From: Kiloniella spongiae
GTDB lineage: Bacteria > Pseudomonadota > Alphaproteobacteria > Kiloniellales > Kiloniellaceae
DNA length: 64,000 nucleotides
Assembly: GCF_001026905.1 (NCBI RefSeq)
Contig: NZ_LAQL01000006.1
Location: 248,001-312,000, forward strand
Direction of reading: 5' to 3'
This document shows positions 28,598 through 46,116 of the stretch, in pieces. The notes under the pieces are model-generated. The model was not told the origin of the DNA. It did no database searches and worked only from the letters and a program-made list of their open reading frames with translations. Made by a program: the position numbers and the translations under genes. How positions within the stretch are numbered: the first letter of the stretch is position 1; every line of letters begins with the position of its first letter.

Positions 28598-29062
28598 CTA
28601 GCCTGCTTTTTCAGCCAAGACGTTTCGGGCCTCTGTTAATTGACTGGTCGTATGATCAATGCGGTGCGCAAGCACCCGCATAACTTCCACACCCATTTCC
28701 GGGAAATCCATCACCATATTAAAGAAAAGCTCTTTGGTAATTTTTAATGTAATGAGTTCCGACGTGGCTTTAACAGTCGCCGTCCTTGGTACATCACAAA
28801 GAATAGCAATTTCACCAACAAAGTCATTTTTCCCAAAAGAAGCAACAACAAGAGGACCATCATCCGTATCAACAATGACATCGGCTTCACCTTCGATAAA
28901 GATATAAGCCGCATCCCCCGCATCTCCCTGATGGAAAAGCTCTTTTCCCTCTTTGAAAATCAGGCGTTCACTTGCAAAGGCCATAAGCTTTAATCTGGAA
29001 GGATCAATATTTGCGAAGAGCGGAATATTCTTTAGCACTTCAACTTCTTGTTCGATAGACAT
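28598..29062 (-). CDS. Cyclic-nucleotide-binding domain protein (cNMP, CAP_ED type)
   Basis: The 154-residue protein is one cyclic-nucleotide-binding fold without an attached DNA-binding domain. The phosphate-binding cassette is GEIAILCDVPRTATVKA at residues 83-99, with the ribose-binding Glu84 and the phosphate-binding Arg93 both present, so cAMP or cGMP binding is expected. It lies 73 bases downstream of the unusual ABC protein gene and on the same strand, so the two are probably co-transcribed. The domain may set the activity of that ABC protein or of an unknown partner. A regulator of transcription is unlikely since no helix-turn-helix follows. Confidence 0.88.
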   Translation of the reverse strand: MSIEQEVEVLKNIPLFANIDPSRLKLMAFASERLIFKEGKELFHQGDAGDAAYIFIEGEADVIVDTDDGPLVVASFGKNDFVGEIAILCDVPRTATVKATSELITLKITKELFFNMVMDFPEMGVEVMRVLAHRIDHTTSQLTEARNVLAEKAG

Positions 29063-29135: not shown

Positions 29136-31853
29136 CTATTCGTCATCAATAAGGCTTTTTAAAACTTTACCCTCTTTGTTCAGTTCGTCGAAACTGCCAC
29201 TTTCGACAACTTTTCCATTCTGCATAACTATAACATATTCAAAGTGTTGCGACAGGCTTGCCCTCTGCAATGTCCAGCAAACGCCACGATCTTCCTGGGC
29301 TTCCATGATAGATGACACCAATCTGATCTGGCTTTGTGAATCCATAATTGCCGCTGCTTCGTTTAAAATGAGAAGATCTGGGCGTTTAATGAGCGAGCGT
29401 GCCAGGGCCAGCTTTTGCCGCTGAACACTGCTCAAACGATTTCCAGCAATGCCGACATTAAATTCAAGCCCCACCTCTATAACCTCTGACCGCAATCCCA
29501 ATTCATCCAGAAGTTCTGTCATCACCCGCCCGATAGTCGCACCTGCTTCAGCTCGGCCATAAGCCAAGCGGCCAAAGAGGATATTATCCTGAATACTTGC
29601 CGCTGAGTTATAGTTATCCGGATCGTAAAACTCGACGGCATCCGGATCACGACTTTCCAGTTTTTCGGCAAATATCTTACGGGCCTTCAAAATTTTTGCT
29701 TCAACGTCTTCCGTCACGAGCCCAAGACGATGACGGGCCTCAACATAATCGAAAGGTAGGTACATCAAAGCTTCACGGTCAGAATCCGAAATATCAGAGA
29801 AGTTACTTTTGTCGGCTCGTTTTACAATCTTATCGAATTCCGGCAGATCGTCAGCAGAGATAAAGCTGAATTGTTCAAAGAACTGATGAGACGGAGGAAG
29901 GCCCATAAACAGTTCAACCATGGTTCGGGCAATAGAAAGACCCATATTATAGATACTGTCTCTTAAATCAGCCTCTTTGACAGCCTCACGCAAGATAGGC
30001 ATCGCTAAAAGATTATTTCCTGCGTACTGTTTTTTACGTGGTGTTCCGAATAATAAATTTTCACGTAAAGTCGCATTATTGTTATATTTCTCAGGATCAA
30101 ATGCGATAACAAGATCTTCGTCACCAGTCGTTTTCAAATGCTCTTTCAATGCAATCCTGGCTCCCAGAATACTCTCTGCAATATCCGGGCGATTTTCACT
30201 ATCTACGATGCCGCTCAAACCAAAGAGATAAACATCTTCTGCAAAATCAACGGCGCGCAATACTTCTGTTACGCGAGGGACCAATTCAGCCGGATCATTT
30301 ATCCCTGCAGAGGTAAAATCAATCCACTCACCATCCGGGTTTAAGGCGATATTTCCTGTCCTAAGAGCTTCTTGTTTTTCCCTAAGAAGTTCAGCCTCAG
30401 AATTAGAAAGGCAGGCTGGATCTTTGATCATCCAGTTCCGTAACCCATAAAAAAGATTATCCATAACAGACATGGGAAAGAGATAAGCTTCTGAGCTAAC
30501 GTAAGAAATTCGACGTCCGGTAATAGCAGAAGGCAGATGTGCTATCGGCTTGCCCCCTATTTTCATCGATCCAGAAGACGACTTAACCAGATTGGCCAGA
30601 AGCAACCCTAAATATTCTTTCCCACTGCTGGCATTTCCAACAACGGCAATTTTCTTATCAACACCAACTGTGAAAGTGATGCCTTCCAGGAGCCTGTTTT
30701 CATTTTCATCTACAAGACCAAGATTACTGACAACAATATCACCTGTCAGCGGCGGGCTATGCTTCTCTTCAAGCTGTTGCATTTCAGCCTCGATCATACC
30801 GCTTGGCTGGAACTGATCAGCAACCTGCTCGTATTTGATTTGGACATCATTCCGTTGTTGATCCCAGTTAATGAGATCTTTTATAGGAGGCGGCAAATCT
30901 TTGTAGGCAGCAAGAACGGCTACAAGCGTACCAATTTCAAACTGCCCGGTAATGACCAAATACCCACCGCCAAGATAGAAGATAAAGGGTGTTATTTGTG
31001 CCAGTAAATTATTCAAAAATTTAACAAAAAACTTTCGCTGATAGATTTCATACCGAATTTTGAAAATCTTGCCGAGCCGATTTGATATCTCGGCACGTTC
31101 ATAGTTACTGGTATCGTGAGACTGGATTTCTACGGCACCTTCGACCAATTCACTGACTCGCCCGGCCAAAGCCCGCGCAGTCATTTGGCGTTGACGGCCA
31201 AGATCCAGAATACGTTTGCGTAGTTTGGGAATGACAAAAGCTTGTACGAGAACAATACTCATCGCCACAACGCCCAGCCAAACATTCTGAACCATGATAA
31301 AGATCAACGCCGTTAAGGCCTGACCGCCCAAAAAGAACGGGGTAACAATCGCATCGCCAATAAAACCACCAAGAGGTTCAACTTCATCTTTGAGCATGGT
31401 TGCAATTTCAGCCTGTTTAACACGGCGCGTATGCATAACAGGAAAACGCAGAATGCGATCGGTCAACTCGAAACGTAATCTCCGGAGCATCCGCTCGCCC
31501 AGTTGGCCTTTCAACGTATTAATAACAAACTTAAAGAGCCCATTAACCAGCACAAGTCCCAGAAAAGAAAAACACAATGCAAACAACAACGCAATTTGTG
31601 TTAAATCAAAACCTTCAAATAAAACAACTTTCTCACCAAAGATTGCTTCTCCAAAAGGAAGTTCAAACCGCATGAAAGATAAAGTAGAGTTGATGTCTGC
31701 GAAATTCTGAGAGTCAACAGCACGATTTATGATGCTTTTTGGTAAATCCAATGAAAGGAAATAAAAGGGCATGGATGCCAGCACCAGGAAAAGAATTTTA
31801 ATTTGATCTTTTCTACTGTGCTTCCAAATATACTTGAAAAGTCTTTGTTCCAT
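29136..31853 (-). CDS. Unusual ABC exporter-like membrane protein with degenerate, expanded nucleotide-binding domain
   Basis: The protein is about 905-912 residues; residue numbers here count from a GTG at 31874, and ATG at 31853 is the likely start. An ABC exporter membrane domain covers residues 25-340. The ATPase domain departs from the family. The P-loop is GNASSGKE (413-420), with Glu in place of Ser/Thr. The usual Q-loop Gln is missing at 461. The FPMSVMDNLFYG stretch that follows it (467-477) is repeated twice more as NATLRENLLFG (600-610) and SAASIQDNILFG (757-768), with helical inserts of about 120-140 residues between. The signature LSSVQRQ (814-820) is present, but Walker B is LLILNEA (834-840, Asp to Asn), and the switch His is Gln at 870. 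It is linked to a cyclic-nucleotide-binding gene. Confidence 0.85.
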   Translation of the reverse strand: MEQRLFKYIWKHSRKDQIKILFLVLASMPFYFLSLDLPKSIINRAVDSQNFADINSTLSFMRFELPFGEAIFGEKVVLFEGFDLTQIALLFALCFSFLGLVLVNGLFKFVINTLKGQLGERMLRRLRFELTDRILRFPVMHTRRVKQAEIATMLKDEVEPLGGFIGDAIVTPFFLGGQALTALIFIMVQNVWLGVVAMSIVLVQAFVIPKLRKRILDLGRQRQMTARALAGRVSELVEGAVEIQSHDTSNYERAEISNRLGKIFKIRYEIYQRKFFVKFLNNLLAQITPFIFYLGGGYLVITGQFEIGTLVAVLAAYKDLPPPIKDLINWDQQRNDVQIKYEQVADQFQPSGMIEAEMQQLEEKHSPPLTGDIVVSNLGLVDENENRLLEGITFTVGVDKKIAVVGNASSGKEYLGLLLANLVKSSSGSMKIGGKPIAHLPSAITGRRISYVSSEAYLFPMSVMDNLFYGLRNWMIKDPACLSNSEAELLREKQEALRTGNIALNPDGEWIDFTSAGINDPAELVPRVTEVLRAVDFAEDVYLFGLSGIVDSENRPDIAESILGARIALKEHLKTTGDEDLVIAFDPEKYNNNATLRENLLFGTPRKKQYAGNNLLAMPILREAVKEADLRDSIYNMGLSIARTMVELFMGLPPSHQFFEQFSFISADDLPEFDKIVKRADKSNFSDISDSDREALMYLPFDYVEARHRLGLVTEDVEAKILKARKIFAEKLESRDPDAVEFYDPDNYNSAASIQDNILFGRLAYGRAEAGATIGRVMTELLDELGLRSEVIEVGLEFNVGIAGNRLSSVQRQKLALARSLIKRPDLLILNEAAAIMDSQSQIRLVSSIMEAQEDRGVCWTLQRASLSQHFEYVIVMQNGKVVESGSFDELNKEGKVLKSLIDDE

Positions 31854-32232: not shown

Positions 32233-33531
32233 ATGAAATGTGGCATAGTCGCCAGCATTACCGAGGGGAGCAAAACCATTACACAAGACAGTACACACAT
32301 CGTTGATGATCATAAAAGCACCCGTGTTCTGATCTATAGTCACGATAGCTTTGGCTTGGGCCATTTACGCCGCTGTCGGGAAATTGCCCATACACTGGTA
32401 GAAGAACATAAAAACTTATCCGTTTTGATTTTATCCGGCTCGCCAATCATTGGGTCATTCGGGTTTAAAGCCCGCGTGGATTTTGTCCGCATACCCGGAG
32501 TCATCAAACTGAGAAATGGCGATTACACATCGCTCAACCTACACATTGATATTGAACAAACCCTGAGCATCCGATCATCCATTATCAAGCATACAGCAGA
32601 GTTTTATGATCCGGATCTGTTCATTGTGGATAAAGAACCTCTGGGACTAAGAGGCGAAGTGGAAGATACATTACGCTTGCTCAAAAACCGTGGCACTCCT
32701 TGTGTACTAGGCCTGAGAGATGTCATGGATGATCCAGATCTTCTCTCTACTGAGTGGGAGCGCAAAAACACCGCACCTGCCTTATCCGAATACTATGACG
32801 ACATCTGGATCTATGGTCTTCCACAAATTTGTGACCCCCTAGACGGCATTGATCTTCCTCCGTCAGTCCAACGGAAAATGACCTACACTGGCTATCTACG
32901 TCGGACCGGTGGCAGCGATGTACCAATGCCTGTACTTGAAAAAATTGGTGAAGAAACACCTTACTTACTCGTGACTGTCGGCGGCGGTGGTGATGGCGAA
33001 GAAATTATTGATTGGGTGATCTCCGCCTATGAAAACGATCCAGATCTTCCTTATCCAGCGCTGATTGCCCTTGGGCCTTTTATGAATAGTGATCTTCAGC
33101 ATGATTTTCAGGTCCGTGCCAGCAAATTACCTAATGTTGAAGCCATAACCTTTAATGCCCAATTCGAAAGTCTGGTCGATCGAGCCATCGGCATTGTTGG
33201 TATGGGGGGATACAATACTTTTTGTGAGATTCTTTCCTATGATAAGCGCGCACTCATCGTTCCAAGAACTGTCCCCAGGATGGAACAATACATCCGGGCC
33301 AGTCGCGCACAGGAACTCGGTTTGGTTCGTATGTTGGAAAATGACGACAAACGCGATCCGCAAAAAATGGCAACAGCCTTAAGGAACTTACCTCAGCAAC
33401 ATCTACCATCTGATGTCGTCGTACCAGGTTTGCTTGACGGTCAGAAAAACGTCATCAAACTTGCTGATAACTGTTTCAAGGCAAAGCTGTCAAAACTGGG
33501 ATTGATCGACAAACTATCAAATACAAATTAA
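32233..33531 (+). CDS. MurG-like glycosyltransferase, paralogue 1 of the array
   Basis: This GT-B-fold protein of 432 residues has the opening VLIYSHDSFGLGHLRRCREIAHTL, VDKEPLGLRGEVEDTL in the middle, then TVGGGGDGEEIIDWVI and GGYNTFCEILSYDKRALIVP near the C terminus, where UDP-sugar is bound in MurG-like enzymes. It is a remote paralogue of the two genes at 36040 and 37882. This family (COG4671-type predicted glycosyltransferases) has no characterised reaction that I can point to. It opens a run of genes on the plus strand and follows a hairpin leader. The exact start is open because the ribosome site is weak. Confidence 0.85.
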   Translation: MKCGIVASITEGSKTITQDSTHIVDDHKSTRVLIYSHDSFGLGHLRRCREIAHTLVEEHKNLSVLILSGSPIIGSFGFKARVDFVRIPGVIKLRNGDYTSLNLHIDIEQTLSIRSSIIKHTAEFYDPDLFIVDKEPLGLRGEVEDTLRLLKNRGTPCVLGLRDVMDDPDLLSTEWERKNTAPALSEYYDDIWIYGLPQICDPLDGIDLPPSVQRKMTYTGYLRRTGGSDVPMPVLEKIGEETPYLLVTVGGGGDGEEIIDWVISAYENDPDLPYPALIALGPFMNSDLQHDFQVRASKLPNVEAITFNAQFESLVDRAIGIVGMGGYNTFCEILSYDKRALIVPRTVPRMEQYIRASRAQELGLVRMLENDDKRDPQKMATALRNLPQQHLPSDVVVPGLLDGQKNVIKLADNCFKAKLSKLGLIDKLSNTN

Positions 33532-33612: not shown

Positions 33613-34836
33613 ATGAAAAAAATAACCGTAATCCTAAAGGGTTACCCGCGCCTTTCCGAAACCTTTATCGCACAGGAACTTCTTGCGCTGGAACAACGCG
33701 GACTGGATCTTTCACTGGTCTCTCTCCGCCACCCCACGGACACATCCACGCATCCCATTCATCAAGAAATCAAGGCTCCCGTTAGCTACCTGCCTGAATA
33801 TGCTTATCAAGAACCTTTGCGAGTCTTAAAAAGCTGGTGGAAAGTCCGAAAACTGGCTGGCTACCAAAGGGCCTTTTCCCTTTTCATCAAAGATCTAAAA
33901 CGCGACCGAACCCCAAATCGGATCAGACGCTTTGCCCAAGCTTGCGTTCTCGCTTCTGAGTTACCAGAAGACATCGATTGGCTCTATGCGCATTTTTTGC
34001 ATACACCATCTTCAGTGACACGCTATGCATCCTTTATGAGGGATATTCCCTGGTGCGGATCAGCCCATGCCAAGGATATATGGACATCTCCGGAATGGGA
34101 ACTGCGGGAAAAGCTATCCGACATTAAATGGTTGGCGACCTGCACGAAATTCAACGTGGATTATTTAAGAGGCTTAACCGAAAATAAAAGCCGTGTAGAT
34201 CTAGTCTACCACGGTCTTGATTTTGATCGTTTTAATAAAACTGCTCATGACCATTCCCGGAATGACGGAAGCTCAGAAGATAAAAGCGTAACTCTGATAT
34301 CCGTTGGACGTGCCGTTGCAAAAAAAGGATATGACGATCTCTTAAAAGCTCTTTCCTCTTTACCACAAACATTACATTGGCACTTCATTCATATCGGTGG
34401 AGGAACATTAAGCAAGGACCTGAAAAATCAGGCCCAATTATTTGGCATCGCAGATAAAATCACCTGGATGGGCGCGCAACCTCAGGAAGTGGTTCTGGAG
34501 CAATATCGAAAAGCAGATCTTTTTGTTTTAGCATCAAGAATCACAGAAGATGGAGATCGCGACGGGATGCCAAATGTGCTTATGGAAGCACAAAGTCAGG
34601 CTCTGGCCTGCCTTTCAACCGATATATCTGCTATACCTGAACTTATCATCAACAATGAAACAGGTTTATTAGTTTCACAAGAAAACCCGGATGCTTTAGG
34701 CGCTGCACTCAAAAAGCTCATCGAAAATCCCTCACTCAGGGAAAAACTGGGGCAAGCCGGAGCAAAACGCGTAAGAGGTGAGTTTTCCATGAAACAAGGT
34801 ATCGATCAGCTTTTTGACCGGTTCACGGCAAAATAG
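33613..34836 (+). CDS. Family 4 glycosyltransferase, WcaL-like
   Basis: The protein is 407 residues and begins KKITVILKGYPRLSETFIAQELLALEQRG, the usual start of a WcaL-like enzyme (colanic acid type). The C-terminal GT4 domain has LISVGRAVAKKGYDDLLKAL, a GAQPQEVVLEQYRKADLFVLAS donor-binding stretch, and GMPNVLMEAQSQALACLSTDISAIPE, with the EX7E-type residues of GT4. The product likely adds a sugar to a lipid-linked or surface saccharide in the cytoplasm. It lies 81 bases after the first glycosyltransferase. Confidence 0.9.
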   Translation: MKKITVILKGYPRLSETFIAQELLALEQRGLDLSLVSLRHPTDTSTHPIHQEIKAPVSYLPEYAYQEPLRVLKSWWKVRKLAGYQRAFSLFIKDLKRDRTPNRIRRFAQACVLASELPEDIDWLYAHFLHTPSSVTRYASFMRDIPWCGSAHAKDIWTSPEWELREKLSDIKWLATCTKFNVDYLRGLTENKSRVDLVYHGLDFDRFNKTAHDHSRNDGSSEDKSVTLISVGRAVAKKGYDDLLKALSSLPQTLHWHFIHIGGGTLSKDLKNQAQLFGIADKITWMGAQPQEVVLEQYRKADLFVLASRITEDGDRDGMPNVLMEAQSQALACLSTDISAIPELIINNETGLLVSQENPDALGAALKKLIENPSLREKLGQAGAKRVRGEFSMKQGIDQLFDRFTAK

Positions 34837-34849
34837 TCAGGCGACAGAA

Positions 34850-36037
34850 ATGCGGATTTCTTTTTACGCCCCCTTAAAATCACCCCGCCACCCTACGCCA
34901 TCAGGCGATCGTCACGTTGCCAGATTACTGATCCAAGCTCTCGAAACTCAGGGACATGACGTTGAAATTGCTTCCCATCTGCGCAGTAGAGACTCAACAG
35001 GCGACAAAGACCGCCAAGCCCGGTTGAAGAATATTGGCGAAAAGCTTGCCGCAAGATATGTAAAAAAAATCCGGGGAAAACCAAAAAACCAGCGTCCAGA
35101 TATTTGGGTCACCTATCATCTCTATTATAAAGCGCCTGACTGGATAGGTCCCCTTGTCTGTGAAGCGCTCAATATTCCCTACATCCCTATAGAAGCCTCC
35201 ATTGCCAACAAACGGGCCAATGGCCCTTGGGATTTAAGTCACCGAGCTGTGGTTTCAGCCGTAAATCAGGCTGAATGTGTCATCAGCCTTAATCCGCATG
35301 ACACGCACTGCCTACCAGAAACTGTCAGAAACTGGTCCCTGCCACCCTTTATTGTTCCCGATCCAATTATAGCAAAACGAGAAAACTGGTCACAGTGTCG
35401 TAAGGTTGCTGCTGAACAATATGGGCTAGATCCACACAAGCAATGGTTACTGGCAATTGCCATGATGCGCCCCGGAGACAAGCTGGAATCATACAAAGTC
35501 CTGTCAAAAGCTTTGCGCGGTCTGCCGGATTTACCTTGGCAGTTAATCATCGTTGGGGATGGACAAGCCAGATCTGAGGTTGAAGCAACCTTTGTATGGG
35601 TGCCAAAAAACAAAATTACCTACACAGGCCAGCTTGCTGCAGAAGAACTAGCAACAATCATTCCCGCGTGTGATATCTATACCTGGCCTGCGGTTAACGA
35701 AGCTTATGGTCTGGCATTTCTAGAAGCCCAGGCTGGTGGATTACCTGTCATCGCAGGAAAAACAGGGGGGGTCCCTGCAGTAGTCTCAGATGGCGAAACG
35801 GGTATTCTGACAACACCAGGAGATCCTGTGGCCTTTGCCGCTGCGCTCAGAAGTTTACTTACAGCCCCGGTGCGTCGCAGAGATATGGGAAAATCTGCCG
35901 CAGAAAAGGTCGAAGCCATGCATAGTTTAACTACAGCCGGACACCGCCTGGATGCAATCCTTGCAACATCCAGAAAAGACTATATTGAACCTGGGTTACC
36001 CCTGTTAGATTATGCCAAAAGAAACAAGACGCTATAA
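34850..36037 (+). CDS. Family 4 glycosyltransferase, second
   Basis: The 395-residue protein starts with MRISFYAPLKSPRHPTPSGDR, the N-terminal nucleotide-sugar fold of a GT4 enzyme, and has LLAIAMMRPGDKLESYKVLSKAL and DIYTWPAVNEAYGLAFLEAQAGGLPVIA. An upstream in-frame start at 34814 lies within the previous gene, so I use the ATG at 34850, thirteen bases after that gene's stop. The gap to the next gene is two bases. The acceptor and donor cannot be read. Confidence 0.88.
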   Translation: MRISFYAPLKSPRHPTPSGDRHVARLLIQALETQGHDVEIASHLRSRDSTGDKDRQARLKNIGEKLAARYVKKIRGKPKNQRPDIWVTYHLYYKAPDWIGPLVCEALNIPYIPIEASIANKRANGPWDLSHRAVVSAVNQAECVISLNPHDTHCLPETVRNWSLPPFIVPDPIIAKRENWSQCRKVAAEQYGLDPHKQWLLAIAMMRPGDKLESYKVLSKALRGLPDLPWQLIIVGDGQARSEVEATFVWVPKNKITYTGQLAAEELATIIPACDIYTWPAVNEAYGLAFLEAQAGGLPVIAGKTGGVPAVVSDGETGILTTPGDPVAFAAALRSLLTAPVRRRDMGKSAAEKVEAMHSLTTAGHRLDAILATSRKDYIEPGLPLLDYAKRNKTL

Positions 36038-36039
36038 CA

Positions 36040-37245
36040 ATGACATCTGAAACCACGAGATCTGATAACCGCATTGACGTTCTCTTTTATGTTCAACATC
36101 TTCTGGGTATTGGACATCAAAAACGAGCCGCAACCCTGACCCGAGCTATGAATAAGGCTGGCCTTTCGGCTGCTTTTGTTTCCGGCGGTATGGATGTACC
36201 CGGGCTGGACACCGGCGATGCACAGTTTTATCAACTCGATCCCGTTCGTTCTGATGGTATCCTGTTCAAAGAATTACTGGATCAACACGATCAGCCAATT
36301 GATAAAGTTTTTAAGGCCAAAAGGGCCAGAGATCTTGTCGATATTTATCGTGCCACAAGGCCCCGACTTTTGTTGTTGGAAATGTTTCCCTTTGGCCGTC
36401 GACAAATGCGTTTTGAGCTTATTCCTTTGCTCGAAGCCGCTAAAATGTCTGGTTTTTCCAGTAAAATAGTCTCATCCGTTCGGGATATTCTCGTCAAAGC
36501 ACCAAAACCGGAACGTATTACCGAAATGCTTGCTTGGGTAGATATCCATTTTGATCACGTTTTGATTCACGGCGATCAAAACCTGATCCCCTTTGACAAA
36601 ACCTTTCATCCCGCGCGTGATATCGCCGATAAAATTCTCTATAGCGGTTATGTTGTTGATGAAAAGGTCGATGGTACTCCTCACCCTACGGATGGTATTG
36701 ATGAGGTTCTGGTTTCAACTGGTGGCGGTGCTGTAAGCGAGCGTCTGATAGAAGCAGCTTTAGAAGCAAGAAAACAAAGTGTTTTGAAAGAAAAACGATG
36801 GCGTATTCTCATCGGACACAGCCTGCCTGAAAAACTGTTCGAAAAATACAAAGCGCAATCAGATAACCACTTGATTGTTGAACGCTCAAGGCCAGATTTT
36901 ACATCACTTTTGGCAAATTGCGCCTTGTCAATAAGTCAGGGTGGATACAACACTGTTATGGAAGTCCTGCGCGCCGGGTGCCCTCGCGTCATTGTTCCCT
37001 ATTCGGGTGGTCTGGAAACTGAACAGACACTCAGGGCCAAACTGTTATCGGAACAAAACGCCCTCACCTACGTGGACGAAGAAACCCTGACAGCAGAAAA
37101 ACTCGCCACAGACATAGAAAAAACATTACAAAACAAACAAAAGCCACCCTCCAGCCTAAATACAAATGGCGCTGAAAACACGGCAACAATTATTTCAAAT
37201 ATTCTTAATGATAAACCATTACAAAAGTTTCTGAAGAATGTCTGA
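36040..37245 (+). CDS. MurG-like glycosyltransferase, paralogue 2 of the array
   Basis: The 401-residue protein begins with DVLFYVQHLLGIGHQKRAATLTRAM and has LLLEMFPFGRRQMRFELIPL, VLIHGDQNLIPFDKTFHP, DEVLVSTGGGAVSERL and SISQGGYNTVMEVLRAGCPRVIV. It is the closest kin of the gene at 37882, and a 23-base stretch of DNA is identical in both (36088-36110 and 37918-37940). The conserved MFPFGRRQMRFEL block occurs in both and is the best mark of this subfamily. It overlaps the phosphatase gene by eight bases, which suggests translational coupling. Confidence 0.88.
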   Translation: MTSETTRSDNRIDVLFYVQHLLGIGHQKRAATLTRAMNKAGLSAAFVSGGMDVPGLDTGDAQFYQLDPVRSDGILFKELLDQHDQPIDKVFKAKRARDLVDIYRATRPRLLLLEMFPFGRRQMRFELIPLLEAAKMSGFSSKIVSSVRDILVKAPKPERITEMLAWVDIHFDHVLIHGDQNLIPFDKTFHPARDIADKILYSGYVVDEKVDGTPHPTDGIDEVLVSTGGGAVSERLIEAALEARKQSVLKEKRWRILIGHSLPEKLFEKYKAQSDNHLIVERSRPDFTSLLANCALSISQGGYNTVMEVLRAGCPRVIVPYSGGLETEQTLRAKLLSEQNALTYVDEETLTAEKLATDIEKTLQNKQKPPSSLNTNGAENTATIISNILNDKPLQKFLKNV

Positions 37246-37882
37246 AATATTAATCTTCAGACATGGGCCAACTGTTTGGAATGCAGAGAAACGAATGCAG
37301 GGAAGATCTGATATTTCCCTCTCTGGGCAAGGCATAGAGACTGTTAAAAAGTGGCAACTTCCAAAGGAATGGATGGACGTGTCTTGGTATGTCAGCCCTT
37401 TGCAACGTGCTCAAGAAACCGCCAAACTGCTAGGACGAAAGAAGTTTAAAACTGATCCTTTGTTGATCGAAATGTCTTGGGGAAATTGGGAAGGGCAAAG
37501 GTTACCCGAATTGAGAGAAAAGCTAGGGCCAGAAATGGAAAAAATGGAGGCGCTTGGGCTGGATCTGTGCCCCCCTGACGGTGAAAGCCCCAGAGATGTT
37601 CAAGAACGCCTGAAACCTTTTCTAGGTAGAATTGCAAAATCAAATCAGTCAATTGTCTCTGTGTCTCACAAAGGAGTCCTACGAGCGCTTTATGCCGCCG
37701 CAACAAACTGGGACATGCGCGGCAAACCAAAAGAAAAAATAAGAGATAACTGCGCTCATCTTTTTCAGATTTCCTCAGCAGGTAAAATCAGCGTAAAAAC
37801 AATGAATATCAGTTTGTTATCGTCTATTGATTTTTTCCCAAGACCCACAAAATTATCAAACCCCTCCGAAGAAGCCCTCTAA
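37238..37882 (+). CDS. Histidine phosphatase family protein
   Basis: The 214-residue protein is a phosphoglycerate-mutase-like phosphatase: ILIFRHGPTVWN with the catalytic RHG at residues 8-10, YVSPLQRAQETAKLLG, EMSWGNWEGQ with the acid, and SVSHKGVLRALYAAA with the second histidine. Known members of this fold remove phosphate from sugar phosphates, including GpgP in glucosylglycerate synthesis of mycobacteria. Its place between two paralogous glycosyltransferase genes, with overlaps of eight and one base, suggests that it removes a phosphate from a product of the pathway. That is inference. Confidence 0.88.
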   Translation: MSEILIFRHGPTVWNAEKRMQGRSDISLSGQGIETVKKWQLPKEWMDVSWYVSPLQRAQETAKLLGRKKFKTDPLLIEMSWGNWEGQRLPELREKLGPEMEKMEALGLDLCPPDGESPRDVQERLKPFLGRIAKSNQSIVSVSHKGVLRALYAAATNWDMRGKPKEKIRDNCAHLFQISSAGKISVKTMNISLLSSIDFFPRPTKLSNPSEEAL

Positions 37883-39081
37883 TGAAGATCCCAAAAGATA
37901 CCGTTAATGTTTTTATCTATGTTCAACATCTTCTGGGTATCGGACACCTCAGACGCGCTTCTTTACTTGCCAAAACCATGGACAAAGCAGGCATGTCGGT
38001 ACTTTTTGCATCGGGAGGGCGCCCCGTATCCTACCTTGATATTGGTAAAGCCCAACTTTTTCAGCTTCCTGCACTTCATGCAGCCGATAACAGTTTTAAG
38101 GTTCTAAAGGATATTAATGGATCAATCGTTGATGATGAGTGGAAAGAACATCGAAAAGAGATGCTTTTATCAGCTTTTCGCAAGGCTTCTCCAGACGTAC
38201 TTTTGATAGAAATGTTTCCTTTTGGCAGACGCCAGATGCGTTTCGAGTTGGATCCTCTGATCGCGTTAGCGAAATCAATGAACATCCCCGTCATCAGTTC
38301 TATCCGAGACATCCTAACAACCCATAAAACCCCGGGTAAAAGTGAGTGGATTATTGATCGGGTCAAAAAAGATATTGATCATGTTCTGGTTCATGGAGAT
38401 CCTGATTTTATCCCCCTTGAAGATAGCTTTCCGCTTGCCGAAAAAATTAAAGATAAAATCATCTATACAGGCTACGTCGTTGAACATGACCAAAATCGAG
38501 ACCCCAGTTATAGAACCAGTTCACCAGAGGATAGAAAAGGTGTACTCGTTTCTGCAGGTGGAGGGGCCGTAGCTCTGCCCTTGGCTGAAGCGGTCATAAA
38601 AGCCAAAAATCTCTCCACTTTGAACAATGTGCCCTGGCTATTGCTTCTGGGAACCAATCTGCCTGATCAAGAATTCAACGACATCGTCAAGCGGGCACCT
38701 GAGGGTATGATTGTTGAACGAAACCGCCCGGATTTTTGCGCACTTCTCTCCAAATCTCAACTTTCCATCAGTCAGGCCGGCTATAACACTGTTATGGAAA
38801 CGCTTATGACTGAGACGCCAGCGATTGTCGTTCCCTTTTCAGCCGACAGTCAGAGCGAGCAAACAGATCGAGCACAGAAACTCGAAAAAGCGGGTGCACT
38901 CTCACTTTTGTCAGAAGCAGGCCTAACACCGGAAAATCTAGCGAGAAAAATAGACGATGTTGTCCAAAAATCAATTTCAACTATAAAAATAGATGTTCAC
39001 GGCACACACAAAACAACACTTTTTATCAAAAGTTTAATTGAGAAAAAAACTAACCAGAGAGCCATACAGTGCCCCAAATAG
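37882..39081 (+). CDS. MurG-like glycosyltransferase, paralogue 3 of the array
   Basis: The 399-residue protein begins VFIYVQHLLGIGHLRRASLLAKTMDKAG and has LLIEMFPFGRRQMRFELDPLI, VLVHGDPDFIPLEDSFPLA, GVLVSAGGGAVALPLAEAV and SISQAGYNTVMETLMTETPAIVVPF. The ATG overlaps the phosphatase stop (TAATG). Its DNA shares a 23-base identical stretch with the paralogue at 36040, and the two proteins share the MFPFGRRQMRFEL block, so they came from one duplicated gene. The N- and C-terminal halves form a GT-B fold. The reaction is unknown. Confidence 0.88.
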   Translation: MKIPKDTVNVFIYVQHLLGIGHLRRASLLAKTMDKAGMSVLFASGGRPVSYLDIGKAQLFQLPALHAADNSFKVLKDINGSIVDDEWKEHRKEMLLSAFRKASPDVLLIEMFPFGRRQMRFELDPLIALAKSMNIPVISSIRDILTTHKTPGKSEWIIDRVKKDIDHVLVHGDPDFIPLEDSFPLAEKIKDKIIYTGYVVEHDQNRDPSYRTSSPEDRKGVLVSAGGGAVALPLAEAVIKAKNLSTLNNVPWLLLLGTNLPDQEFNDIVKRAPEGMIVERNRPDFCALLSKSQLSISQAGYNTVMETLMTETPAIVVPFSADSQSEQTDRAQKLEKAGALSLLSEAGLTPENLARKIDDVVQKSISTIKIDVHGTHKTTLFIKSLIEKKTNQRAIQCPK

Positions 39082-39677: not shown

Positions 39678-41594
39678 GTGAACGATCTGTTACAGGTCAA
39701 AGACCTCCGTGTCGCATTTAAGCTTCCAGAAGGAACTTTGAACGCCGTCAAAGGTGTATCCTTTCGCATCCCTAGAGGGAAAACTGTTTCTCTAGTTGGT
39801 GAATCAGGATCAGGAAAGTCCGTTGTCAGTCAGGCAATCATGGGCATTTTACCAAAAGTTGCCGAAATTGCAGGTGGTGAAATTCTTTTTTCTGATCCAG
39901 TAAAGCACGGCGAAGTCCTTGACCTCGCCAGAATACACCCCGACAGCAAGCAGATGCGACAAATACGCGGCGGTAGAATCTCCATGGTTTTTCAGGAGCC
40001 AATGACCTCGCTTTCACCAGTACATACGGTTGGAAACCAGATCTGTGAAGCTCTGGAGTTACACCGCGCCATTTCCGCTGCTCAAGCACTGGAACTTGCA
40101 ACCGACATGTTACGTATGGTGGGGTTCCCCGACCCAATCAGAGCCATGCGTACCTATCCATTTGAACTCTCAGGTGGGTTGCGACAGCGCGCTGTTATAG
40201 CCATGGCCTTGGTGTGTCACCCTGCGCTACTCATAGCCGATGAACCCACCACTGCGCTGGATGTCACCATTCAGGCGCAAATTCTGAAACTAATCAAAGA
40301 CTTGCAGAGCGAACTGGACATGTCCGTTCTGATGATCACACACGACCTTGGCGTTGTAGCCAACATGGCTGATGAAGTTGTGGTTATGTATCACGGAGAG
40401 GTAATGGAGAGCGGTACACTGGAGGATATTTTCAGAAGAGCCGAACACCCCTACCTCAAGGCCTTACTTCATGCGGTTCCCCGTTTTGATATGAAACCGG
40501 ATGAACGGCTCAAGCCAATTCGGGAAATTGAGCATCATCCGGACAACCCTATTCTCAAAGCAAAGAGACAACGACGAATAATCTGTGAAGATGATCCCCC
40601 TTTGCTTGAGGTAAATAATATCTCAAAATCTTTTACGATCAGAAAAGGTGGGTTTTTCTCTCAAAAATCAACGGAAAAGGCATTGGCCGTTGATGATATC
40701 AGCTTTTTTGTCAATCGCGGGGAATGCCTAGGCCTTGTCGGAGAAAGTGGCTGCGGTAAAACCACACTGTCAAAGATCATCATGCGCGCCCTGAAGCCCG
40801 ATCAAGGGTCAATTATTTTCAGGGATCAAGAGAATAATCCGACAGATGTTTTAGCGTTGGAGAAAAAGAATCTCTTTGATTTTCGTGAACGTGTACAGTT
40901 CATGTTCCAGGATCCCTATAGTTCGCTCAACCCACGTATGACTGTGCAGGAGTTAATTGGTGAACCACTGCTCATACATGGCATGAAAGACCCTAAAGAG
41001 CGGCGAAGGTACGTTGAAAGCCTGATGGATGTCGTTGGATTGGCACCAATGCATATAAATCGTTACCCACATTCATTTTCAGGAGGGCAGCGTCAACGTA
41101 TCGGCATTGCGAGGGCATTGGCCCTGCAGCCGGACCTTTTGATCTGTGACGAGCCTGTATCAGCATTAGATGTCTCTATTCAGGCTCAGGTTCTTAATCT
41201 TCTGAAAGATTTGAAAGCAGCTTTGGGTCTGACCTATATCTTCATCAGTCACAATCTGGCGGTTATTGATTATATTGCAGATCGGATTATCGTCATGTGC
41301 AGAGGACGACTGGTTGAATCTGCCCCGAAAGAATTACTCTTTAAAAACCCCGTTCATCCCTATACCCGCGCACTAGTATCTGCAGTCCCAGACCCCGACC
41401 TTGACCATCCACTTGACTTAAAGGATCTACTGGAAGGCAAAGCCTCTGTGCCGGAAAACTGGCCAGCGCCTTTCACCGTAAATGATCAGCACGAGATGAC
41501 CATGGTTGCTTTAGGTGGCGGACACTATGTACGCGTCCATAAAGGCACTGATAGCACTGCAATCCCTCAACCAGACATGAGGGAGAACGCATAA
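39678..41594 (+). CDS. yejF: Peptide/nickel-type ABC transporter ATPase, fused double domain (YejF/DppD-DppF like)
   Basis: Two ATPase domains are joined in 638 residues. The first has Walker A GESGSGKSVVSQA, signature LSGGLRQRAVIAMAL and Walker B LLIADEPTTALD; the second has GESGCGKTTLSKI, SGGQRQRIGIARALAL and LLICDEPVSALD. Oligopeptide-type C-terminal helices follow each (HPYLKALL, HPYTRALV). This fused design is that of YejF. The two permease genes follow with one- and four-base overlaps. It lies 57 bases after the membrane protein gene. Substrate is probably a small peptide or an oligosaccharide-like compound. Confidence 0.92.
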   Translation: MNDLLQVKDLRVAFKLPEGTLNAVKGVSFRIPRGKTVSLVGESGSGKSVVSQAIMGILPKVAEIAGGEILFSDPVKHGEVLDLARIHPDSKQMRQIRGGRISMVFQEPMTSLSPVHTVGNQICEALELHRAISAAQALELATDMLRMVGFPDPIRAMRTYPFELSGGLRQRAVIAMALVCHPALLIADEPTTALDVTIQAQILKLIKDLQSELDMSVLMITHDLGVVANMADEVVVMYHGEVMESGTLEDIFRRAEHPYLKALLHAVPRFDMKPDERLKPIREIEHHPDNPILKAKRQRRIICEDDPPLLEVNNISKSFTIRKGGFFSQKSTEKALAVDDISFFVNRGECLGLVGESGCGKTTLSKIIMRALKPDQGSIIFRDQENNPTDVLALEKKNLFDFRERVQFMFQDPYSSLNPRMTVQELIGEPLLIHGMKDPKERRRYVESLMDVVGLAPMHINRYPHSFSGGQRQRIGIARALALQPDLLICDEPVSALDVSIQAQVLNLLKDLKAALGLTYIFISHNLAVIDYIADRIIVMCRGRLVESAPKELLFKNPVHPYTRALVSAVPDPDLDHPLDLKDLLEGKASVPENWPAPFTVNDQHEMTMVALGGGHYVRVHKGTDSTAIPQPDMRENA

Positions 41595-42592
41595 TGTTGG
41601 GCTATATCGTCAATCGTATTTTGGCCATGGTGCCGACGTTGCTTATCATTTCAGCAATTATCTTTACTCTGATTCAGTTACCGCCCGGCGATTACCTTGA
41701 AACACAGATTGCCGAAATGCAGGCACAGGGCGAAAACGTCGATCAGGAAAAAATTGATTATCTCCGTACCGAATATGGTTTGGACAAGCCCATGTACGTA
41801 CAATATTTTGACTGGGTTTTGGGGCTTTTACAGGGTGATCTTGGTTACTCATTCGAACATGAGTTACCAGTAACCGAAGTTATTGGTGATCGCATCACAC
41901 TGACCATCATACTCGCCCTTGCAGCAACACTTTTTACTTATGTTCTCTCCTTTCCAATAGGTATCTATACCGCCGTCAAACAATACTCTGTCGGTGACTA
42001 TGTTTTCAGTTTTGTCGGCTTTATTGGTCTCGCGACCCCTAACTTTTTGCTGGCTCTGGTTTTGCTTTATTTTGCCAACGTCTGGTTCGGCACTTCTATT
42101 GGCGGCTTGATGGATGACGAGTTTATCGGCAAGCCCTGGAGTATGGATAAAGCACTCTCTGTACTTGAGCACCTATGGGTGCCTGTCGTTGTAATTGGTA
42201 CGTCTGGTACCGCTGGTATGATCAGACGACTACGTGCGAACATGCTGGATGAACTATCAAAGCAATACGTCATTACAGCCAAAGCAAAAGGTCAGACACC
42301 ACTTAAAATCCTATTGAAATACCCACTTCGTTTGGCAATAAATCCATTTATCGCGGATATTGGATCTATTCTGCCTGATTTGCTTTCCGGCTCTGTACTG
42401 GTCGCTGTCGTCATGGGACTGGAAACAACAGGGCCGATGTTGGTCGATTCTCTGTTGAGTCAGGACATGTATCTCGCGGGATCATTCCTTATCATCGAAG
42501 CATCACTGGTTGTTATCGGCGTCTTTATTTCAGATCTGATTCTTGCCTCGATAGATCCAAGAATTCGCCTCGGCGGGGGAGCTGAAAAATGA
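41594..42592 (+). CDS. yejB: ABC transporter permease (OppB/YejB type)
   Basis: The 332-residue protein has six membrane helices and an opening LGYIVNRILAMVPTLLIISAIIFTL with a periplasmic loop EMQAQGENVDQEKIDYLRTEYGLDKPMYVQY, as in OppB-type permeases. The coupling helix lies in LRANMLDELSKQYVITAKAKGQTPLKILLKYPLRLAI. The ATG overlaps the ATPase stop by one base. It forms the membrane pore with the next permease. Confidence 0.9.
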   Translation: MLGYIVNRILAMVPTLLIISAIIFTLIQLPPGDYLETQIAEMQAQGENVDQEKIDYLRTEYGLDKPMYVQYFDWVLGLLQGDLGYSFEHELPVTEVIGDRITLTIILALAATLFTYVLSFPIGIYTAVKQYSVGDYVFSFVGFIGLATPNFLLALVLLYFANVWFGTSIGGLMDDEFIGKPWSMDKALSVLEHLWVPVVVIGTSGTAGMIRRLRANMLDELSKQYVITAKAKGQTPLKILLKYPLRLAINPFIADIGSILPDLLSGSVLVAVVMGLETTGPMLVDSLLSQDMYLAGSFLIIEASLVVIGVFISDLILASIDPRIRLGGGAEK

Positions 42593-43776
42593 GTAAAAAC
42601 ACAACAGATCACCAACCCCCAAATCAGCCAATGAAGCATTACGTCAACCCTGCCTCTTTTGATCCACAGTCAGTAACGAAACTGACGCCACAGCAAGAAC
42701 GCTATTTCACTGCATCGCAATGGCAGATCATGTGGTGGAAGTTCAAAAAGCACAAACTTGCGGTTTATTCCGGCATTATCCTGCTCTGCATGTATATTGT
42801 TGCTATTCTGGCGGAACTAGTTGCCCCCTATAATTTACACAATCGGGAAACAAAATTTATCTACGCCCCGCCACAGGCCATTCATTTTTTCCATCAAGAC
42901 GAGTTCGTAGGCCCCTTCGTCTATGGCTTTGATTACAATCTCAATATGGACAACCTCAAGCGGGAATACACCCCTAATACCGCAGATGTTCAAAAGCTGA
43001 GCTTTTTTTGCCGAAGTGATCAGGAATATGATTACCTCGGTCTGATCAGTGGAGACTTCCATTTTGTCTGCCCCGCAGAAAACGGAACCCTCTTTATCTG
43101 GGGGACTGATCGTTTGGGGCGTGATGTCTTTAGTCGTATTATTTACGGTTCAAGGATCTCTCTGACCATTGGTTTAATAGGTGTTGCCATTAGCTTTGTA
43201 CTCGGTACCTTCTTTGGTGGCCTTGCAGGATATTTTGGTGGTCTGGTCGATAATTTCATTCTGCGAGCCATCGAAATACTCAAATCTTTCCCAAGCCTGC
43301 CACTTTTTATGACTCTTTCCGCTCTCTTGCCCGTTACCTGGAGTCCCCTGGGCGTCTTTTTTGGTATATCGATAATTCAAGGCTTCTTGGATTGGCCGGG
43401 ATTAGCTCGTGCTGTCAGGTCGAAACTATTAAGCCTTCGCGAAGAAGATTTCACCACAGCAGCACAGTTAATGGGTGCTTCGCACGCAAGGATTATTGGC
43501 AAGCACCTTTTACCTTCGTTCAGTAGTCATCTTATTGCCTCTGCAACCTTGGCCATACCTATGATGATACTGGGCGAGACCAGCTTGTCTTTCCTTGGTC
43601 TAGGGCTAAGAGCACCAATCACATCATGGGGTGTACTACTCAACGAAGCTCAGAATATTAGCGCCGTGGTTCTATACCCATGGCTGCTCTTACCCGTTCA
43701 ACCCGTGATACTGGTTGTACTTTGCTATAACTTCTTGGGTGACGGGCTGCGTGATGCCGCAGACCCCTATAAATAA
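42589..43776 (+). CDS. yejE: ABC transporter permease (OppC/YejE type)
   Basis: The 395-residue protein has an N-terminal cytoplasmic arm of about 55 residues, a first helix (YSGIILLCMYIVAILAELVAPY), a long periplasmic loop holding NTADVQKLSFFCRSDQEYDYLG, then five helices with the coupling motif EEDFTTAAQLMGASHARIIGKHLLPS. This long loop is shared with YejE-type permeases. The binding protein usually found next to such genes is not within the window. The stop is followed by a hairpin. Confidence 0.9.
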   Translation: MSKNTTDHQPPNQPMKHYVNPASFDPQSVTKLTPQQERYFTASQWQIMWWKFKKHKLAVYSGIILLCMYIVAILAELVAPYNLHNRETKFIYAPPQAIHFFHQDEFVGPFVYGFDYNLNMDNLKREYTPNTADVQKLSFFCRSDQEYDYLGLISGDFHFVCPAENGTLFIWGTDRLGRDVFSRIIYGSRISLTIGLIGVAISFVLGTFFGGLAGYFGGLVDNFILRAIEILKSFPSLPLFMTLSALLPVTWSPLGVFFGISIIQGFLDWPGLARAVRSKLLSLREEDFTTAAQLMGASHARIIGKHLLPSFSSHLIASATLAIPMMILGETSLSFLGLGLRAPITSWGVLLNEAQNISAVVLYPWLLLPVQPVILVVLCYNFLGDGLRDAADPYK

Positions 43777-43815: not shown

Positions 43816-45138
43816 TTAATCTGCAATCACGACAAGATCCATGGCGTCAGAAACACCCGTGACCTGACTCTGGACAAGCACTTTTCGCTCCAACAAGGGA
43901 TGATACCCTTGTTCAACGGCTCTTTTGTATGTCGTTTGATCAGCAAGAGCACGCACACCAACATCTTTATTATGCTTTTCAAGCTTCGCCGAGAGATTAA
44001 CCGCGTCACCAATTACGGTGTATTCCAGACGCGTATCATCACCAACAGCCCCAAAGAGAACAGGCCCAACAGCAACTGATCCATTAACCAGTGGCGCTTC
44101 TTCACCATTATCCCTTTGCCATGCCGCTGTTACCTTCATTAGCTCATCCATGGCCCTTAAAGCATCTGCAGCATAGGTTTCCGAAGGGACAGAAGCCCCA
44201 AAGGTTGCCATGATGCCATCCCCCATAAACTTATCAATTGATCCGCCATGCTTTTGGATAATCGGAACACAAAGTTGCTGATATTCTGCCAAAGTGCCCA
44301 TCACAATCTCTGCTGATTCTACCGCGGCTAACTTTGTGAACCCGCGCATATCCAAATTCATAATTGCGGCTTCACGCCTTTCAGCACTTCCCACCGTTAT
44401 TTTATCTTTTGAATCAGCAATCTTTTTAGCTACTTCAGGCGAAAAGAAGCGCGAAAGTTCTTGCGCCGCCTGTCGTTCCGAAACTGAATTGATCAATAAA
44501 GCCCGAGCACGCACCAATGCAACAGCCAAAATAAGTGTCACAACCAAAATAGAGATTATCTTGTCAAACTCTGCCCCGAGAAGAATAGAATTTGAGGTCA
44601 TGTAGTGCACATAATCCCTGGTAATCATGCTGTCCATGGAATCAAAGGAAACGACATACATAATCATCACTCCCCACCCGAGGGCAGCAAATAATCCGGC
44701 AATGACAACGAACTTGGCTTCAAATCTCAAAGCTCTGATAGCTATGAAGATAAAAACATACAGAAGGGTTGGAACTTTCAGATAAAAACTTGGGGGTTGA
44801 TTATATTGCACATGAAAGCTCCAGATCAGAACCATCAAAAGCGTCATATCAAAAAGCGCAGAAAAGGCGAGCGACCAGTCCGGCATATGGAAATTATAAG
44901 CCCAGACGATACGTATCAGTGTCAGCACCAAATAAATGCTCAAAGCCCAGGGAACTGGCGCAAAAGTCACATCTTCGTTAAAAGTTTTTGGCGATATAAG
45001 ATAGAGAGAACCGAAAATAGAAACAACAGCGAGCTGAATCCAGCCGATTAGCCGTTCCGTTTTATCTTCCTGTTCATGAATGGCGTTAAGTACCCGCTCT
45101 GGCAAAGCTGTTTCATTAACCGAGCTAAACCATTTCAT
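43816..45138 (-). CDS. Membrane-bound class III adenylate cyclase
   Basis: The 440-residue protein has about six membrane helices over residues 30-210 and a class III cyclase domain over residues 250-420. Metal-binding Asp263 (NLDMRGFTKL) and Asp307 (KFMGDGIMATF) are present; Lys303 and Asp378 (EYTVIGDAVN) fit ATP as substrate. Asn381 is present, but the transition-state Arg is Lys385 (NLSAKLE). Activity may therefore be reduced. It is followed on the same strand by an unrelated-looking metallo-beta-lactamase-fold gene that lies upstream of it in reading order, so the two are probably not a single message, but both could act on cAMP. Confidence 0.9.
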   Translation of the reverse strand: MKWFSSVNETALPERVLNAIHEQEDKTERLIGWIQLAVVSIFGSLYLISPKTFNEDVTFAPVPWALSIYLVLTLIRIVWAYNFHMPDWSLAFSALFDMTLLMVLIWSFHVQYNQPPSFYLKVPTLLYVFIFIAIRALRFEAKFVVIAGLFAALGWGVMIMYVVSFDSMDSMITRDYVHYMTSNSILLGAEFDKIISILVVTLILAVALVRARALLINSVSERQAAQELSRFFSPEVAKKIADSKDKITVGSAERREAAIMNLDMRGFTKLAAVESAEIVMGTLAEYQQLCVPIIQKHGGSIDKFMGDGIMATFGASVPSETYAADALRAMDELMKVTAAWQRDNGEEAPLVNGSVAVGPVLFGAVGDDTRLEYTVIGDAVNLSAKLEKHNKDVGVRALADQTTYKRAVEQGYHPLLERKVLVQSQVTGVSDAMDLVVIAD

Positions 45139-45276: not shown

Positions 45277-46116
45277 TTATAAATCTAGAACAAGACCTTC
45301 TTTTGCAAACAGCGTACCCGGACGAGCTTTATCAGCCTTTTCAGCCTCAATATCCAGGAAATCATCGTTATGACAAGGGTCATGATGGAAAGCAATTAAC
45401 TGTTTCACATCTGCCAAATCACACAACCGTACCCCTTCTTGCCAGGTTGAATGTCCCCAGTCCTTGAATTTAGGAAATTCTTCATCCGTATAACTACTGT
45501 CATAGACCATGCAGTCAGCGTCTTGAACAAGTTCAATTATTTGGCGGTCCGGGACACCGGGGGTATGTTCCGTATCAGTTATGTAACAAAAGGACTTGCC
45601 TTTGTATTCAAGGCGGTATCCCGTCGCGCCATTAGGATGATTCAAAGGAGTCGTACGTATTTTGAGGCCGGGATAGGGCTCTAACGTTTCGCCGCTATGA
45701 AAATCATGAAATGTCACGTTCGCAGAAAATATTTTTGGGGGTACCGGAAACAAAGGTTCAGCCATGTAACGGCACAAAATTTCGTGCAAATTACTTTGCT
45801 GTTCCAACAAATGCCCTGCCCACAAACGCACTTTGTTTTTAGGGTAAAAGTTTGGACCAAAAAACGGCATTCCCATAATGTGGTCGTGATGGGTATGGGA
45901 GAAAAGAATATCAATCTGCTGTTTATCACTCGCAGAACAGATATTTTGTCCCAAAGATCTAATACCCGTTCCTGCATCGAAAATAAAATGGTGATCTCCA
46001 CAGCGAACCTCTACGCATGACGTATTCCCGCCATAACGTCTGTGGCTATTTTCCGGGCAAGGTATTGATCCTCTTACTCCCCAGAATTTTACTGTAAAAT
46101 CACTCGTTGCCGACAC
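45277..46116 (-). CDS. Metallo-beta-lactamase-fold hydrolase, possible cyclic-nucleotide phosphodiesterase
   Basis: The 279-residue protein has the MBL metal motif HTHHDH at residues 74-79, further His ligands at LNHPNG and HHDP near residue 264, and FWGVRGSIPCPE, RYGGNTSCVEV and FDAGTGIRSLG at the front, as in the PhnP/cyclic-phosphodiesterase side of the superfamily. It reads in the same direction as the cyclase gene, which starts 138 bases downstream. The family hydrolyses phosphodiesters or similar esters; that the substrate here is cAMP is an inference from the neighbour. Confidence 0.88.
   Translation of the reverse strand: MSATSDFTVKFWGVRGSIPCPENSHRRYGGNTSCVEVRCGDHHFIFDAGTGIRSLGQNICSASDKQQIDILFSHTHHDHIMGMPFFGPNFYPKNKVRLWAGHLLEQQSNLHEILCRYMAEPLFPVPPKIFSANVTFHDFHSGETLEPYPGLKIRTTPLNHPNGATGYRLEYKGKSFCYITDTEHTPGVPDRQIIELVQDADCMVYDSSYTDEEFPKFKDWGHSTWQEGVRLCDLADVKQLIAFHHDPCHNDDFLDIEAEKADKARPGTLFAKEGLVLDL

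Follow-up and report, generated by a model that had tools for sequence, protein, structure and literature searches.

The 64,000-nucleotide window analysed here, from Kiloniella spongiae (contig NZ_LAQL01000006.1, positions 248,001 to 312,000), carries a gene at 29136-31853 for an ATP-binding cassette (ABC) exporter-like protein of 905 amino acids, counted from its ATG codon; an upstream GTG start would yield 912. Public records label the gene "ABC transporter ATP-binding protein" or "ABC transporter transmembrane domain-containing protein". A first-pass annotation of the window had described one membrane domain in a chain of 905 residues, and both the reading frame and the Pfam matches agree with it: ABC_membrane was located at residues 94-314 (54.4 bits, cut-off 28) and ABC_tran (51.7 bits, cut-off 25) matched in two separate stretches. 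With a transmembrane domain (TMD) and a nucleotide-binding domain (NBD) above the Pfam cut-offs and an exporter fold, this is by descent a type IV ABC exporter. None of the best 25 of 177 matches (E up to 1) to the NCBIfam exporter families (MsbA, HlyB, CydD and others) reached its curated cut-off, the highest score being 162 bits for MsbA against the 602 required. The gene is single-copy in its own genome, where the next six exporter loci are 21-32% identical. Using Foldseek, an AlphaFold2 model (pLDDT 82, pTM 0.74) aligned end to end with the exporters PCAT1, TmrAB and MsbA (E down to 5e-18), in superpositions so loose (query TM-score 0.22-0.38 and root-mean-square deviation of at least 14 Å for the 50 matches listed) that they support fold order but not fold geometry.

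The catalytic motifs of the NBD are almost all altered. The P-loop reads GNASSGKE (406-413), S454 occupies the place of the Q-loop Gln, N831 replaces the Asp of Walker B (LLILNEA) and Q863 the switch His, all as the first-pass annotation had reported. It had also taken the signature to be the one motif left intact; this needs correction, since LSSVQ differs from LSGGQ, and in total five of the ten scored catalytic residues are kept. To place these losses we used an alignment of 158 rows longer than 800 amino acids, including the Kiloniella protein (five rows duplicate a gene fetched twice), from which 79 representatives, all less than 70% identical, were retained. Such an alignment had been suggested as a check on whether the losses are conserved, and they are: no representative keeps all ten residues and the maximum is seven, while five different exporters from six loci of the same genome score ten out of ten at the same columns. 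Among the representatives the Q-loop Gln is present in 16, the switch His in 15, the signature Ser in 30 and the signature Gly in eight. Walker B Asp is found in 19 (Asn in 41), and the adjoining Glu in 33, or in 48 if Asp is allowed there. Within the P-loop, G406 (64/79), G411 (65/79) and K412 (42/79, with Arg in 23) are better retained than Ser or Thr at position 413, which is found in only eight; Glu (30) or Asp (23) stands there instead. Mean column conservation, computed over 76 rows, is 0.48 for the catalytic positions, 0.62 for the TMD and 0.94 for the repeat motifs described below. A loss shared by the whole family cannot be put down to sequencing error or to recent decay. A decayed pseudogene was likewise rejected, since many genera conserve long open frames in which the same residues are altered. 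Judged by its sequences, the family appears to lack the set of Walker A, Q-loop, LSGGQ, Walker B and switch His by which a functional ABC ATPase is recognised, and catalysis seems to have been freed from selection across it. The public label "ATP-binding protein" is thus apparently contradicted throughout the family.

The same counts bear on whether the protein might still be an ATP-driven flippase of lipids or glycans, albeit an unusual one, hydrolysing slowly through non-canonical residues and merely tuned by the cyclic-nucleotide-binding protein encoded next to it. The retained glycines and Lys (or Arg) of the P-loop and the acidic residue at the Walker B Glu site speak for such an enzyme. 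The first-pass annotation had stated that homologues with both P-loop and Walker B intact would refute it, and these exist to a slight extent only: Lys and Ser/Thr occur together in five of the 158 rows, three of which also have the Walker B Asp and Glu, none with the Q-loop Gln, and these three (L130, L139 and L150) represent one gene of genome G321. A flippase nevertheless seems unlikely, given that the Mg2+-liganding Ser/Thr has been exchanged for an acidic residue in 53 of 79 representatives and that Walker B Asp, Q-loop Gln, switch His and signature Gly are each kept in a minority.

The second peculiarity of the NBD is its middle part. The first-pass annotation had proposed that the segment following the Q-loop is present three times, and this is confirmed. 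The motifs VMDNLFYG (463), LRENLLFG (596) and IQDNILFG (754) carry asparagines which are virtually invariant among the representatives (N466 in 78/79, N599 and N757 in 79/79) and across the 158 rows (N466 in 157; N599, N757 and G761 in all). Profile-profile comparison with hhalign related copies 1 and 2 (E = 1.3e-6), 2 and 3 (E = 4.5e-14) and 1 and 3 (E = 3.4e-6), as against E values of 0.007 or worse between the copies and other parts of the same protein. A match between two membrane-domain blocks in this comparison is trivial, because the blocks overlap, and was disregarded. When compared with a small profile of five NBDs from ordinary exporters, copy 1 (E 1.2e-9, probability 96%, 25 columns) and copy 3 (E 5.4e-15, probability 98%, 78 columns) matched the same Q-loop/post-Q-loop stretch. 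Copy 2 matched that stretch weakly (E 6e-4, probability 29%), so that its link to the exporter segment runs mainly through copy 3. The N- and C-terminal halves of the NBD each matched the profile once (E 3e-19 and 4e-19). To the question raised in the first pass of one domain or three, the profiles answer that there is one N-half, one C-half and three middle segments; three complete ATPase domains were rejected on this basis. Together these matches support a tandem triplication of the Q-loop/helical segment within a single ATPase domain. The middle insert was also considered as a separate known fold and discarded, for its 281-residue model (pTM 0.65) had no match with E <1 among PDB structures. 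In ordinary exporters, the post-Q-loop segment is in contact with the membrane domain's coupling helices.

Seventy-three bases downstream of the ABC-like gene, and on the same strand as the first-pass annotation had noted, lies a gene for a 154 amino acid cyclic nucleotide (cyclic nucleoside monophosphate, cNMP)-binding protein. It has the GE and R(T/S)A phosphate cassette of such proteins and is predicted to be one; the cassette is intact in the family (G83 in 72/72, E84 in 66/72 and R93 in 71/72 partners). A Crp/Fnr-type transcription factor was considered and rejected, as Pfam identified PF00027 only in the 154 residues and neither a DNA-binding domain nor a C-terminal helix-turn-helix. In 59 of 78 representatives the cNMP gene comes immediately after the ABC-like gene, and in another 12 the cNMP domain is fused to the C-terminus of the ABC-like protein, giving proteins of approximately 1000-1100 amino acids. 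Eleven of these fusions are in frame and the twelfth, that of L130, is evident from the longer stretch L150; in one representative (L098) the arrangement is cut by the contig end. The cassette has drifted in some of the fused forms (e.g. L127, L128 and L137). On a tree of the membrane domain, fusion requires one change only, with weak support, and is compatible with a single event; we do not claim repeated fusions. The long cNMP reading frames of L157 and L179 proved to be frame artefacts. Genome G210 carries the fused protein in three copies and G385 in two, whereas most of the listed genomes have one copy.

The membrane domain also occurs without any ATPase. In genome G378 (approximately 1.6 Mb; L191:2194-5547) a 333 amino acid TMD-only form is divergent from the same glycosyltransferases that accompany the full-length gene, and no NBD match is left within the 6-kb stretch. 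This lineage bears on a further alternative, namely that the protein transports nothing and is a regulator, a membrane-bound cNMP receptor scaffold which recruits or inhibits glycosyltransferases and for which the TMD is a mere anchor. A dead NBD with a fused or adjacent cNMP domain is what such a receptor might look like. However, no other part of the protein is as well conserved as the TMD, in which many charged residues are invariant, and in G378 it is retained alone beside the glycosyltransferases, which is more than an anchor would need and makes a pure regulator improbable. Other membrane-domain-only relatives were encountered (L201:13773-15266 and L204:9252-10511, on Phaeobacter and Azospirillum plasmids; L190:2540-3781; L192:2410-3594). 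In two genomes they adjoin genes resembling, by eye, copper or metal genes; an exporter membrane domain without an NBD in metal handling is odd in itself.

Of 385 genomes sampled from the class Alphaproteobacteria, 132, or about a third, had a match to the ABC-like protein (E<=1e-40), in some cases a partial one. Among close relatives, 48 of 58 genomes, its own included, had a match at E 1e-60 or better, mostly of full length. A sample of the whole phylum gave matches in 26 of 299 genomes, 25 of the same class, the remaining one (L135) being to a membrane-domain-only protein. A scan of named genomes, biased to near relatives by its Kiloniella-derived patterns, yielded 49 loci in Kiloniella, Mesorhizobium, Microvirga and a few others, the nearest being in Kiloniella majae (96%) and Kiloniella litopenaei (94%). 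In a plasmid collection 337 records matched, chiefly from Rhizobium (144) and Sinorhizobium (80). Searches of the open-access literature returned no study of this ABC-like protein, and no matching paper on dead exporter families or on cNMP-controlled polysaccharide exporters. A divergent branch (L131, L132 and L184, in G559, G566 and G581) shares the dead NBD region and the repeats at about 25% identity overall (35-37% in the best stretch); its membrane domain is strongly divergent and no cNMP gene lies in the fetched flank. Methylobacterium bullatum (H87, residues 368-865) has a protein similar to this branch.

Divergent from the ABC-like gene are five glycosyltransferases and a histidine phosphatase, followed by an oligopeptide-type ABC importer (Table 1). 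Relatives of the nearest glycosyltransferase occur in 126 of the 385 genomes, and the two families coincide closely (both in 125, ABC-like only in seven, glycosyltransferase only in one, neither in 252; cut-offs 1e-40 and 1e-60; Fisher p = 1.3e-91, uncorrected for shared ancestry). In some genomes, e.g. G355 and G266, the partners are on different contigs or far apart, so that the link is not mere adjacency. The set comprising oligopeptide-type importer, glycosyltransferases, ABC-like protein and cNMP protein or domain recurs in Rhizobium etli p42e, Sinorhizobium meliloti pSymB and Azospirillum ramasamyi, with a block order and strands that differ from those of the Kiloniella window. Both rhizobial loci include a class III cyclase and that of S. 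meliloti an MBL (metallo-beta-lactamase)-fold protein. The cyclases are 24-27% alike over 180-251 of 440 residues, which keeps their orthology at candidate level. In Mesorhizobium, MBL-fold homologues directly follow the cNMP gene. An association with cyclase and MBL genes was seen in eight of the 35 representatives with at least 2.4 kb of downstream sequence, some at just 50-70 bits, and is treated as secondary. Between the ATPase and permease genes of the importer, Rhizobium, Sinorhizobium and Azospirillum have a gene for a substrate-binding protein; there is none there in the Kiloniella window. In S. meliloti (L206:3787-4989) and R. etli (L200:1532-2707) the cyclase gene has a DUF3095 gene in its vicinity.

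Table 1. Features of the Kiloniella spongiae window (positions are those of the window).
Feature	Position	Strand	Remarks
cNMP-binding domain protein	28598..29062	-	154 aa
ABC exporter-like protein, predicted ATPase-dead NBD	29136..31853	-	905 aa from ATG
NBD C-terminal half	29139..29381	-	residues 825-905; Asn for Asp in Walker B (LLILNEA), Gln for the switch His
Copy 3	29382..29648	-	residues 736-824 (EFYDPDNYNSAASIQDNILFG); runs into altered signature LSSVQRQ
Copy 2	29649..30122	-	residues 578-735 (AFDPEKYNNNATLRENLLFG); helical extension
Copy 1, Q-loop/post-Q-loop segment	30123..30518	-	residues 446-577 (YVSSEAYLFPMSVMDNLFYG); no Q-loop Gln
NBD N-terminal half	30519..30740	-	residues 372-445; altered P-loop
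Transmembrane domain	30819..31853	-	residues 1-345; best conserved part
Glycosyltransferase, GT28 C-terminal domain	32233..33531	+	divergent neighbour, phylogenetic partner; SMb21265 counterpart by positional count
Glycosyltransferase, GT4-type	33613..34836	+	also in Rhizobium, Sinorhizobium and Azospirillum loci
Glycosyltransferase, GT4-type	34814..36037	+	
Glycosyltransferase, GT28-C	36040..37245	+	
Histidine phosphatase	37238..37882	+	of the glycosyltransferase cluster
Glycosyltransferase, GT28-C	37882..39081	+	
ABC importer, oligopeptide-type	39678..43776	+	also in Rhizobium, Sinorhizobium and Azospirillum loci
Importer, fused double ATPase	39678..41594	+	
Importer, permease	41594..42592	+	
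Importer, permease	42589..43776	+	
Class III adenylate/guanylate cyclase	43816..45138	-	
MBL-fold hydrolase, GVRGSI type	45277..46116	-	

These neighbourhoods also speak to the suggestion that the protein is one half of a heterodimeric ABC exporter, contributing the degenerate site while an intact exporter elsewhere in the genome supplies the working one. Pairs with one degenerate site are known (TmrAB, TM287/288) and figure among the structural matches, and R. etli has an annotated ABC ATP-binding protein of exporter size (RHE_RS24125, about 600 amino acids) some 15 kb away, where the stretch ends. Yet in four annotated neighbourhoods no exporter gene is directly beside the ABC-like gene, and the neighbouring ABC genes held in common with the window are those of the oligopeptide-type importer. 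Since the known degenerate exporter chains appear to lose fewer residues as well, we regard a heterodimer as very unlikely, though an unlinked partner is conceivable.

The best studied of these loci is that of S. meliloti 1021, in which the ABC-like gene lies at 841723-844423 of pSymB. The gene order was taken from the annotation of strain R14 and filled in by tblastn, and SMb numbers were obtained by counting back from the LacI-family gene, taken as SMb21272, a number given to a LacI family member in PMC11387232. This count assigns SMb21265 to the glycosyltransferase, SMb21269 to the ABC-like protein and SMb21270 to the cNMP protein; the first assignment agrees with PMC10128002, which describes SMb21265 as a glycosyltransferase family protein. 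According to the accessible text of the latter, nine genes between smb21252 and smb21271 are needed for an uncharacterised surface polysaccharide, PPP, that protects against the antimicrobial peptide phazolicin; smb21252 and smb21265 mutants are phazolicin-sensitive, the screen showed depletion of cyaA, an adenylate cyclase gene, and the region is probably tied to symbiosis too (PMC10128002). Accessible parts of two further papers state that seven of the nine PPP genes are induced under Myxococcus attack (PMC10315480) and that the Clr regulator mediates cAMP control of the neighbouring nodP2-smb21248 polysaccharide cluster (PMC5498481). By gene content the Kiloniella locus shares the neighbourhood of the PPP system, in a different block order, and the link of the ABC-like family to a surface-polysaccharide locus is well supported.

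Taken together, we propose that the protein serves a surface-polysaccharide system as a membrane platform or gate that is controlled by cyclic nucleotides and independent of ATP, a reading to which we assign a probability of about one half. A membrane protein derived from a type IV ABC exporter would have turned pseudo-ATPase; with one TMD per chain, it is presumed to act as a homodimer. Its NBD keeps the fold and not the catalytic residues, and, enlarged by the tandem triplication, would offer a docking surface. The adjacent, sometimes fused, cNMP protein may switch it according to the level of cAMP or cGMP, and the membrane domain may hold or pass, at the inner membrane, a glycan or glycolipid that the glycosyltransferases encoded nearby produce. 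Gating by the ligand, independence of ATP, binding of the sensor to the NBD and the nature of the substrate are what we infer. The most doubtful points are what crosses the membrane, whether nucleotide binding is truly gone, and the possible role of the nearby class III cyclase as the source of the ligand. A more specific version, in which a CRP-like subunit and the triplicated coupling segment gate surface-polysaccharide assembly across the Alphaproteobacteria through a cyclic-nucleotide-gated, ATP-independent pseudo-ABC transporter, is tentative; if true, cAMP or cGMP would switch glycan output directly and not by way of transcription. The first-pass annotation had suggested a cyclic-nucleotide-gated scaffold or regulator: the connection with a cyclic-nucleotide-binding protein has been borne out strongly by the adjacent and fused genes, while the role itself we adopt in conditional form only. 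The glycosyltransferase and polysaccharide context, the fusions, the TMD-only relatives and the altered signature were absent from it.

Several observations weigh against a cNMP-controlled, ATP-independent platform. The P-loop Lys and glycines and the Walker B Glu persist in enough representatives for nucleotide binding to be still possible, the G321 gene keeps K, S, D and E, and the structural superpositions are loose. No cNMP partner was found in the fetched flank of six of the 78 representatives, and no such glycosyltransferase in the fetched stretch of 27 of them (these stretches being short, about 1-3 kb per side). Seven of the 132 genomes with an ABC-like match have no glycosyltransferase match at the cut-offs used. 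Membrane-domain-only relatives are found in copper-resistance clusters annotated on plasmids of Phaeobacter (GAL_RS19760) and Azospirillum oryzae (HUE56_RS30490), so that the TMD is not tied to glycans everywhere. Control by Clr nearby could alone account for the cyaA result, and the accessible text of PMC10128002 does not name SMb21269 or SMb21270, the numbers obtained by our count, among the nine PPP genes. The family can serve as a model for an ABC fold working, or re-used, without ATPase chemistry. It allows cAMP/cGMP control of polysaccharide output without transcription to be tested directly, in carriers which include rhizobia whose same gene region is tied to antimicrobial-peptide resistance.

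The type IV (B-family) exporters MsbA, PCAT1, TmrAB and ABCB1 share with this family the TMD-then-NBD chain, sequence matches and the order of the fold; it differs from them in the missing catalytic residues, the three Q-loop/helical segments, the cNMP partner and its length (about 905 amino acids, against 570-600 in most single-TMD structures among the matches listed). In TmrAB and TM287/288 too an exporter NBD has altered catalytic residues, but in the present family the changes extend to almost all the catalytic motifs, and no gene for an intact partner was found immediately adjacent. With the PPP region of S. meliloti the Kiloniella locus shares glycosyltransferases, oligopeptide-type importer, class III cyclase, MBL-fold, ABC-like and cNMP proteins. 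In Kiloniella the ABC-like gene and the glycosyltransferases are transcribed divergently, with the importer beyond the latter. The S. meliloti locus also has a sugar dehydrogenase and methyltransferases, which are not among the window genes run through Pfam; the glycan may differ. The cNMP protein resembles Crp/Fnr regulators in its binding domain with intact phosphate cassette and differs from them in having no DNA-binding domain detectable by Pfam and, in some lineages, in being fused to the membrane protein. Post-translational control of a glycan by a nucleotide messenger is known from polysaccharide synthases governed by cyclic di-GMP and PilZ, e.g. BcsA; in the control proposed here, a CRP-type cNMP domain would do the sensing, in combination with an ABC-derived membrane part.

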